DNA from: Mariprofundus sp. NF
Lineage (GTDB): Bacteria > Pseudomonadota > Zetaproteobacteria > Mariprofundales > Mariprofundaceae
Reading direction: 5' to 3'
Assembly: GCF_013387455.1 (NCBI RefSeq)
Contig: NZ_VWNC01000008.1
Span: 1-64,000 of the forward strand
Length of the DNA stretch: 64,000 bases
Made by a program: the position numbers and the translations under genes
Shown: positions 49,221-51,664 of the stretch, in pieces
How the letters are laid out: each line of letters starts with the position of its first letter
How positions within the stretch are numbered: the first letter of the stretch is position 1
The notes under the pieces: model-generated
Told to the model about the DNA's origin: nothing
Databases searched by the model: none
What the model saw: the letters and a program-made list of their open reading frames with translations, nothing else

Positions 49221-49239
49221 AGTAATGGTAGTCATTATC
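49221..49239. promoter_or_regulatory. Fur box upstream of the Fur-family gene
   Basis: AGTAATGGTAGTCATTATC matches 15 of 19 positions of the Fur consensus GATAATGATAATCATTATC. It ends 10 bases before the start codon, so binding would block transcription or initiation. Confidence 0.6.
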
Positions 49240-49249
49240 ATCTTGTTCT

Positions 49250-49624
49250 ATGGCTAAACTCACCCAACACCGTCAGGTCATTCTTGATCTTATCAATGAC
49301 TCCAACCATCACTGGGATGCGGAGGAGTTGGCGCGGGCGCTTATTGAGCGTGGTTCAAGCATGGGCATCGCAACGGTTTATCGTGGCCTGGCTGCGCTGG
49401 AGTCACAGGGGCTGATCAGTGCATTTCAGATGGCTGATCGCAAACGTTATGAGCGGGCCAGCAAAGCGCATCATGATCATCTTGTCTGCACAGGCTGTGG
49501 CAAGATTCAGGAATTCTTCAACGATGATATCGAGCAACAGCAGGATAGGGTTGCTGAAGAGAATAGTTTTACCATTACCGGTCACCAGTTGGTAATTTTC
49601 GGTACCTGCAATAACTGTAGCTAA
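49250..49624 (+). CDS. Fur-family metalloregulator
   Basis: The product has 124 residues. The winged helix (HRQVILDLINDSNHHWDAEELARALIERGSSMGIATVYRGLAALESQGLI) carries the Fur signature ATVYRGLAAL. The dimerisation domain has the metal-site cluster KAHHDHLVCTGCGK and a C-terminal CNNC. The two CxxC pairs form the structural zinc site. It is shorter than classical Fur (about 140-150). It could be Fur, Zur or PerR; a Fur-like box at its own promoter and the adjacent iron uptake genes favour iron. Confidence 0.85.
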   Translation: MAKLTQHRQVILDLINDSNHHWDAEELARALIERGSSMGIATVYRGLAALESQGLISAFQMADRKRYERASKAHHDHLVCTGCGKIQEFFNDDIEQQQDRVAEENSFTITGHQLVIFGTCNNCS

Positions 49625-49680
49625 AACACCGCCCACATTTTTCTATTCAGATAACGCAGCTTTTACCCTGGCAGTATATT

Positions 49681-49699
49681 GATAATGACTATCATTACT
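49681..49699. promoter_or_regulatory. Fur box 1 upstream of the iron-uptake operon
   Basis: GATAATGACTATCATTACT matches 15 of 19 positions of the Fur consensus. It lies 51 bases before the cupredoxin start. Confidence 0.65.
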
Positions 49700-49714
49700 A
49701 TTTACATATAAAAT

Positions 49715-49733
49715 GATAACGATTATCGTTCGC
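49715..49733. promoter_or_regulatory. Fur box 2 upstream of the iron-uptake operon
   Basis: GATAACGATTATCGTTCGC matches 14 of 19 positions and contains the palindrome AACGATTATCGTT. It lies 16 bases before the cupredoxin start, so two sites flank the presumed promoter. Confidence 0.55.
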
Positions 49734-49749
49734 GAAATAGGAGAACGAT

Positions 49750-50112
49750 ATGAAGTTTTTATCAGAGATACTAATGATCAGAAAAGCGGCCTTGCTGGCT
49801 GGTGTTGCTGTGGCCCTGATGGCCAGCACTACAGCCAACATGGCATGGGCAGCCGAATACCGGGTGGTGATTGAGAATCACCGCTTTGAACCTGCTACCA
49901 TTGAGATGGTGGCAGGAGAGAAACATCGCCTGCATGTGATCAACAACGATGCCACACCTGAAGAGTTTGAAAGTTATGAACTTAATCGCGAAAAGATCAT
50001 CGCCGGCAGATCGACTGCGGTGATTTTTCTGCCAGCGCTGGCAGCCGGTTCCTACCCGTTTTTTGGTGAATTTAATGAAGAGACCGCCCAGGGCCTCATT
50101 GTCGTGAAGTAG
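49750..50112 (+). CDS. Periplasmic cupredoxin-fold protein of the FTR1 system
   Basis: The product has 120 residues. A signal peptide (KAALLAGVAVALMASTTANMAWA) is followed by a cupredoxin-like domain of about 85 residues (YRVVIENHRFEPATIEMVAGEKHRLHVINNDATPEEFESYELN ... SYPFFGEFNEETAQGLIVVK). It resembles the N-terminal cupredoxin part of EfeO. The classical Cys ligand of blue copper is absent, so it may bind iron or copper differently, through His, Met-poor and Glu-rich positions. The ATG has AGGAGAAC upstream. It is 13 bases before the FTR1 gene. Confidence 0.8.
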   Translation: MKFLSEILMIRKAALLAGVAVALMASTTANMAWAAEYRVVIENHRFEPATIEMVAGEKHRLHVINNDATPEEFESYELNREKIIAGRSTAVIFLPALAAGSYPFFGEFNEETAQGLIVVK

Positions 50113-50125
50113 GGGGGGCGCATTT

Positions 50126-51664
50126 ATGTTATCAACACTTATCATTGTATTTCGTGAAGCACTTGAGGCGATTCTGGTGATCAGCATTGCCATGGCTGCT
50201 TCCCGTGGCATCCCATCCTCATCCCGCTGGATCTATGCTGGTGTTACCGGTGGTCTGATCATCGCTGTGATCGTGGCACTGTTTGCCGAACTGATTGCCA
50301 GCTCCATGGCCGGTATGGGGCAGGAGCTGCTTAATGCTGCGATACTGCTATCGGCCTCGATGCTTATGGTCTGGAGTGCAATCTGGATGCGCAGGCAGGG
50401 CAAAGAGATCTCTGATCGTATTCGCCAGCGCTGCTCAGAGATCAAAGGAGAAGGTGTTTCAGTCGTGCTGCTGGCAATCGTGGTCGCTCTGGCTGTGGCC
50501 CGCGAGGGTTCAGAGGTGGTGCTCTTTCTGCATGGTGTGGCTGCCAGTGGTGCGGCTGATCTAAGCGGCATGTTAACCGGTGCCGTGGCAGGTCTGCTGC
50601 TTGGTCTGGCTGTGGCGCTGCTGCTCTATCGCTCGCTGGTGAAAATTCCAATGCGCCATGTTTTCTCAGTCATCACAACGCTGATTGTGCTGCTGGCTGC
50701 CGGAATGGCTTCGCAGGGTATGGCATATCTGGTCACCATCGATGCAGTACCTGCGCTGGGTCAGATGATCTGGAACAGCTCAGGGCTGATTGCTGAACAG
50801 AGTGTCACCGGTCAACTGCTACAGGCATTGATGGGTTATGATGATCGCCCCAGCGGTATGCAGGTGCTTACATTTATATCGGTGCTGTCACTGACCTGGT
50901 TGGTGATCTATCTGCAGGCAAGGCCCAAAAACGGAGCGATTGTTGCGGCAGTGCTGATGCTCTGTGCGTTATCCGTGACCGCATTGCCACAAGATAGCTA
51001 TGCCAAAAAAGTTTACTCCCCGATTGTTGAGCAGGGAGAATTGGAGTTTGAATATATTCTCGACTTCAGCTTTGACAGTGACCCGACCAAAGATGGCAGT
51101 GCCAGAGATCAGTTTGAACTGGAGTATGGCGTCACTGATCGCTGGATGACGGCCGTGGTGGGTGATTTCAGAAAGAGGCCGGGGCAGAGCTTTGCTTATC
51201 AGGGGTTGAAGCTGGAAAACATCTATCAGCTTTTTGAACAGGGCGAGCGCTGGCTGGATGCAGGTCTGTATATCGAATATCTCATACCACAAAGCTCACT
51301 GAACAAACCCGATGTGATTGAGTTCAAACTGCTGCTTGAAAAAGAGAGTGGCAGACTGATCCATACAGCCAATCTGGTTTTGAAAAAAGAGCTGGGTGCC
51401 AATGCCGTTAATAACACGACTGCCGGTTACGCATGGCGTAGCAAATGGCGCTGGAACCGGGCTCTTGAGCCGGGTGTCGAGATCTATGGCGCCATCGGTG
51501 AAGTGGGTAACAGCAGTCCACTCTCCCGCCAGACGCATCAGATTGGACCGGTAGTGTTTGGTAAACTTCCTGCTGGTCTGAGTTATGAGATCGGTTACCT
51601 GTTCGGACTCACCACTGCCAGTGACAAAGGCATGTTGAAGTTTGTACTGGGCTATGAGCTATAA
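50126..51664 (+). CDS. FTR1/EfeU iron permease fused to an exported beta-barrel-like domain
   Basis: The product has 512 residues. Residues 1-265 are an FTR1 permease with seven helices and both iron motifs, REALE (10-14) and REGSE (126-130). After the last helix comes a further hydrophobic segment (about 268-287, KNGAIVAAVLMLCALSVTAL) ending PQDSYA, which reads like a signal peptide with a cleavage site. Residues 294-512 then look like a beta-barrel: alternating strands (GELEFEYILDF, DQFELEYGVTDRWMTAVVGDF, LDAGLYIEYLIP, GMLKFVLGYEL). A typical FTR1 of bacteria is about 280 residues. Whether the second part is cleaved off or stays joined is unknown. No frameshift or internal start with a good ribosome binding site was found. 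Confidence 0.82.
   Translation: MLSTLIIVFREALEAILVISIAMAASRGIPSSSRWIYAGVTGGLIIAVIVALFAELIASSMAGMGQELLNAAILLSASMLMVWSAIWMRRQGKEISDRIRQRCSEIKGEGVSVVLLAIVVALAVAREGSEVVLFLHGVAASGAADLSGMLTGAVAGLLLGLAVALLLYRSLVKIPMRHVFSVITTLIVLLAAGMASQGMAYLVTIDAVPALGQMIWNSSGLIAEQSVTGQLLQALMGYDDRPSGMQVLTFISVLSLTWLVIYLQARPKNGAIVAAVLMLCALSVTALPQDSYAKKVYSPIVEQGELEFEYILDFSFDSDPTKDGSARDQFELEYGVTDRWMTAVVGDFRKRPGQSFAYQGLKLENIYQLFEQGERWLDAGLYIEYLIPQSSLNKPDVIEFKLLLEKESGRLIHTANLVLKKELGANAVNNTTAGYAWRSKWRWNRALEPGVEIYGAIGEVGNSSPLSRQTHQIGPVVFGKLPAGLSYEIGYLFGLTTASDKGMLKFVLGYEL

Follow-up and report, generated by a model that had tools for sequence, protein, structure and literature searches.

We report an open reading frame from Mariprofundus sp. 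NF in which an FTR1-type iron permease continues, through an eighth hydrophobic segment, into a predicted outer-membrane beta-barrel. The frame (50126..51664, forward strand; 512 amino acids) lies in a stretch of 64,000 nucleotides, referred to here as the window, and the fusion is kept in 12 of 78 genomes of the class. We propose, with a probability of about 0.68, that it is translated into a polyprotein belonging to a ferrous-iron uptake system under Fur control, and that leader peptidase would release from this polyprotein an inner-membrane permease and an outer-membrane channel. The cleavage, the outer-membrane location and the passage of iron through the barrel are the parts of this proposal that we infer. 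FTR1 would insert in the inner membrane with its C-terminus in the cytoplasm, as suggested by a basic loop between transmembrane helices 7 and 8, and the eighth segment would serve as a signal peptide inside the chain, so that the C-terminal part is exported. A cut by leader peptidase after A293 would leave FTR1 in the inner membrane, and BAM would fold the freed chain of 219 residues into an outer-membrane channel of 12 strands. One transcript with two genes, for a cupredoxin and the polyprotein, would supply all three layers of the envelope: the barrel would be the outer-membrane entry for Fe(II) or small iron species, the periplasmic cupredoxin would bind or oxidise the iron, and FTR1 would pass it through the inner membrane.

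The permease part (residues 1-264; 50126..50917, forward strand) contains seven hydrophobic segments and matches PF03239 in profile searches (E 2.6e-31, 109.4 bits against a curated cut-off of 25.3). It also matches NF041756, the EfeU equivalog, with E 7.8e-38 and 130.5 bits, a score below the equivalog cut-off of 255. Two REXXE motifs are present on the forward strand, REALE at residues 10-14 (50153..50167) and REGSE at residues 126-130 (50501..50515), and both are kept in all 12 fused homologues. The description of a seven-helix FTR1 with both REXXE motifs, given in an earlier note on this DNA, is thus borne out, and the coordinates and residue ranges given there are correct within a few residues. 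The fused protein is the sole FTR1-type permease found in the window genome. FeoB is encoded on another contig of the same genome, and the fusion system is therefore not its sole route for ferrous iron. A sequence search of the PDB returned no convincing relative for either half of the fusion protein.

For the C-terminal part (residues 294-512, 219 residues; 51005..51661, forward strand), profile searches gave no Pfam or NCBIfam match. AF2 predicted a 12-stranded barrel with pLDDT 79.2 and pTM 0.69, from an alignment of 11 sequences and with five models that span pLDDT 79 to 34; the full-length fusion gave pLDDT 43 and no usable model. The best structural match of the barrel model in the PDB is OmpG (Z 15.2, rmsd 4.1 over 192 residues), followed by CymA (Z 13), FhaC, FadL, FapF and the COG4313 channel 4rl8 (11.9). 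Since many barrels score alike, the OmpG-type match gives a fold class and not a function. The C-terminal residue is F in most homologues, which is typical of outer-membrane proteins, and L in the window protein. On the strength of the model, the C-terminal part is predicted to be an exported outer-membrane barrel, in line with the barrel-like region of about 220 residues that the earlier note had recognised. That note had also considered a soluble extension common to FTR1 proteins. We rejected this candidate: ordinary zetaproteobacterial FTR1 proteins, of about 263-331 residues, have no such extension, and the structure predicted for it is a barrel.

The two halves are connected by hydrophobic segment 8 (residues 267-293; 50924..51004, forward strand), which aligns with the signal peptides of stand-alone homologues of the barrel. 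Its hydrophobic stretch covers residues 267-289 approximately, with a mean hydropathy of up to 2.6 over 17 residues, and is followed by PQDSYA, so that the segment ends in S-Y-A at residue 293. In all 12 fused proteins the barrel start is preceded by A, S or T at position -3 and A at position -1, and the barrel itself begins with KKVYSP or close variants; the -2 residue and the hydrophobic core around the site vary. Stand-alone zetaproteobacterial barrels open with a normal signal peptide at the N-terminus, and here too A-x-A stands directly before KKVYSP, so split versions do exist in related genomes, with a signal peptide of their own and the same cleavage site. Most fused proteins have many K and R residues in the loop between helices 7 and 8; under the positive-inside rule the loop would lie in the cytoplasm and the barrel across the membrane. 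A signal peptidase I homologue is encoded in the window genome. Taken with the alignment, the conserved site supports the original reading of segment 8 as a signal peptide ending PQDSYA.

If segment 8 were left uncut, the barrel domain would stay tethered to FTR1 by helix 8, either in the periplasm or locally bridging both membranes. The frame is indeed continuous and conserved, and the segment is hydrophobic enough for a membrane anchor. However, the 15-20 residues or so that separate segment 8 from the first strand would be too short to cross the periplasm, and the signal-peptidase-type site found in every fused protein lies in a segment matching the true signal peptides of stand-alone homologues. 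Because this site is kept while the flanking segment varies, we judge the single uncleaved polypeptide between inner and outer membrane, raised as an option in the earlier note, to be the less likely outcome. A tethered barrel is in our estimation very unlikely, and a fixed inner-to-outer-membrane iron conduit, in which the permease would be covalently joined to an unreleased barrel, is more unlikely still.

The two halves could also be made separately, by internal initiation or another translational event, in which case there would be no polyprotein. In two fused homologues (G003 and G017) there is a Met some 31 residues ahead of the site from which a plausible signal peptide could start, and the unfused relatives described below have coupled ATGA starts. 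Against this, no start codon with a Shine-Dalgarno sequence before helix 8 that is common to the fused homologues was found, and several of them have no start codon that would retain the basic n-region, so that an internal start codon had to be set aside for want of a consistent candidate. Moreover, no fused gene has lost the reading frame across the linker, although the linker differs in length. We consider separate translation quite improbable, and the failure to find a common internal start with a Shine-Dalgarno sequence leads us to prefer the polyprotein.

The C-terminal domain occurs in 28 of 78 Zetaproteobacteria genomes and is fused to FTR1 in the 12 already mentioned, which are that of the window and 11 others of the family; two of the 12 are interrupted by contig ends. 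The cultured isolate EBB-1 is among the carriers. A sequencing error or chance join was rejected on the grounds of this distribution. Compared with G019, dN/dS was 0.12 for FTR1, 0.19 for the linker with the signal peptide and 0.09 for the barrel. With other relatives synonymous sites were near saturation, and the linker gave values of 0.2-1.0. These ratios indicate purifying selection on both halves and a joint that is relaxed except for the residues at -3 and -1. No relative was found in the viral contigs searched.

The history of the fusion was assessed with trees of both halves. In the FTR1 tree the permease halves of the fused proteins form one group (100/100 when G027 is left out, 87/51 when it is included) that is distinct from the class's ordinary fur-linked FTR1 (100/99). 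In the barrel tree, which held 11 fused rows and left out G291, the stand-alone barrels of G002, G009 and G022 fall among the fused rows. A one-time fusion with all unfused barrels outside is rejected by this tree (AU p 0.0006 with the 11 fused rows, 0.038 without G027); the nesting of G022 alone is not significant (AU p 0.14). The fused G013 and the stand-alone G022 share a common neighbourhood, with DNA identities of 76% on the promoter side and 74% on the barrel side. The order in G013 is Fur box, cupredoxin, FTR1::barrel, while in G022 the same promoter leads directly into signal peptide and barrel, and cupredoxin and FTR1 are missing from the syntenic site. In G022 the counterpart of helix 8 in the alignment is the signal peptide at the N-terminus of its stand-alone barrel. 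This arrangement is the strongest indirect indication that helix 8 may serve as an export signal. The simplest reading is that the FTR1 half was lost in G022 and in the G002/G009 line; for G022, the difference is more probably a loss than an insertion in the others.

Immediately upstream of the fusion, at a distance of 13 bases, lies a gene for a cupredoxin-like exported protein of the FtrB/EfeO-N type (49750..50112, forward strand; PF13473, E 5.8e-26). Its likeness to the N-terminal domain of EfeO is weak (E 0.036). The acidic EXE and EK residues of Brucella FtrB are ligands of a metal that stood in for iron, and its His121 is a predicted copper ligand (PMC11966278). The window cupredoxin has the EXE and EK ligands, and by alignment and motif spacing its N109 probably occupies the position of H121. 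This substitution makes ferroxidase activity uncertain, and the protein might either oxidise iron or only bind it. Among the relatives, cupredoxins beside fused FTR1 have Asn at the His121 position and several distant ones from split operons have His; the acidic ligands are kept.

Two tandem Fur-box-like arrays (49675..49733, no strand assigned; 14-16 of 19 matches to the Fur box) precede the cupredoxin gene. Further upstream are a gene for a fur-family regulator (49250..49624, forward strand; PF01475, E 1.8e-34) and, before it, another Fur-box-like site (49221..49239, no strand assigned; 15/19). The whole window contains 15 Fur-box-like matches versus 1.55 in shuffled sequence. The locus reads fur, cupredoxin, fusion ORF, and then a gene on the opposite strand that by eye reads as an FKBP-type isomerase. 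Fur boxes are also found upstream of most fused operons and of several stand-alone barrels (for example G022, G002, G038, G039). No Fur box was found at the same threshold before the distant Alteromonadales-type operons. Directly ahead of these operons are genes for a sensor kinase and a response regulator (L138 951-2907, L139 968-2937, L103, L109, L112, L113), a pair that may sense iron.

Unfused relatives of the system are found in distant Pseudomonadota. The barrel gene is 3' of cupredoxin and ftr1 in six genomes (G076, G112, G159, G268, G276, G287) and 3' of ftr1 alone in G079, and it follows or faces the cupredoxin alone in G269, G291, G067 and G175; outside the class, 11 of 14 genomes have the barrel adjacent to cupredoxin and/or ftr1. 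The order cupredoxin-ftr1-barrel is seen in Alteromonas macleodii, on plasmid pBGP9, and in Pseudoalteromonas donghaensis, with the barrel annotated as "hypothetical protein" in both. Stand-alone homologues next to unfused ftr1, for which the earlier note had suggested a search, thus exist, and its view that two neighbouring iron genes were joined is supported by these operons. The simple loss of a stop codon that it had put forward is doubtful. The coordinates of the ftr1 stop and the barrel start indicate an ATGA overlap in all six cupredoxin-ftr1-barrel genomes from the search, and the overlap was read directly in two of them. Since an ATGA overlap puts the barrel in another frame, fusion probably required a frame change, by insertion or deletion, beyond the lost stop.

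It could be argued that the barrel is an outer-membrane protein with another purpose (copper, efflux, or a general porin of the PF13557/COG4313 kind) and merely co-regulated with FTR1. One distant split-operon homologue passes the cut-off of PF13557 (Phenol_MetA_deg), a family named for a phenol-degradation pathway, with 23.3 bits against 22; the barrel domain of the window gave no match at this cut-off in the profile search. Furthermore, most stand-alone zetaproteobacterial barrels are not beside FTR1 or other iron genes, and the role of the barrel may therefore be wider than partnership with FTR1. Across distant lineages it is found again and again beside cupredoxin and/or FTR1, and Fur boxes precede several stand-alone copies; both observations speak against a purpose unrelated to iron, which we hold to be unlikely.

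A permease paired with a cupredoxin is a known kind of system, found in FtrABCD (PMC11966278), in EfeUOB and in the EfeU-cupredoxin pairing of Leptospirillum (PMC2631029). FtrABCD of Brucella and Bordetella is a cupredoxin-FTR1 ferrous-iron transporter (PMC11966278), and the window resembles it in that an FTR1-type permease adjoins a small periplasmic cupredoxin with the EXE/EK ligands of FtrB. It differs in having no adjacent FtrA or FtrD genes, in the Asn at the His121 position, and in the predicted outer-membrane barrel fused to the permease. With EfeUOB of the E. coli type it shares the EfeU-like permease and, through the weak likeness of its cupredoxin, the N-terminal domain of EfeO; however, neither an EfeO M75 domain nor an EfeB peroxidase lies next to the permease, which scores below the EfeU equivalog cut-off and has a C-terminal barrel. 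PF13557/COG4313 and OmpG-like channels are comparable in the predicted 12-strand barrel and in the homologue that passes PF13557, while the window domain has no Pfam match, is joined to a permease and is associated with iron genes. The rhizobial fbcH product (cytochrome b/c1) is a polyprotein cut by leader peptidase, both products of which stay at the inner membrane. Like the fusion described here, it links an exported protein to a membrane protein through an internal signal peptide within a single chain, but the second product here would be an outer-membrane barrel.

In the openly licensed papers searched, we found no recognised outer-membrane partner for cupredoxin-FTR1 importers, no description of a system in which an outer-membrane barrel is regularly the third component, and none of a permease-barrel fusion via an internal signal peptide. 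The fusion, together with the unfused operons of Pseudomonadota, nominates an unannotated barrel family as this partner. If the proposal is true, the gene would be an unusual bacterial ORF that feeds both membranes by means of an internal signal peptide. Split operons are present in culturable Alteromonas and Pseudoalteromonas, which makes both ideas directly testable.

Other arrangements of the barrel gene were also noted. In three genomes cupredoxin and barrel adjoin with no FTR1 gene beside them (L104 5878-6967, L106 6252-7351, L108 5870-6954), and this pair may be a separate functional unit. At L117, L129 and L131, other paralogues of the barrel lie between a sensor kinase/response regulator pair and the gene for a CNSCH-motif protein, which suggests a second role. 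Finally, an in-frame stop splits the barrel gene beside FTR1 on a plasmid of Hydrogenophaga into two annotated fragments (L140 4001-4723), and this broken-barrel region occurs twice in the record.
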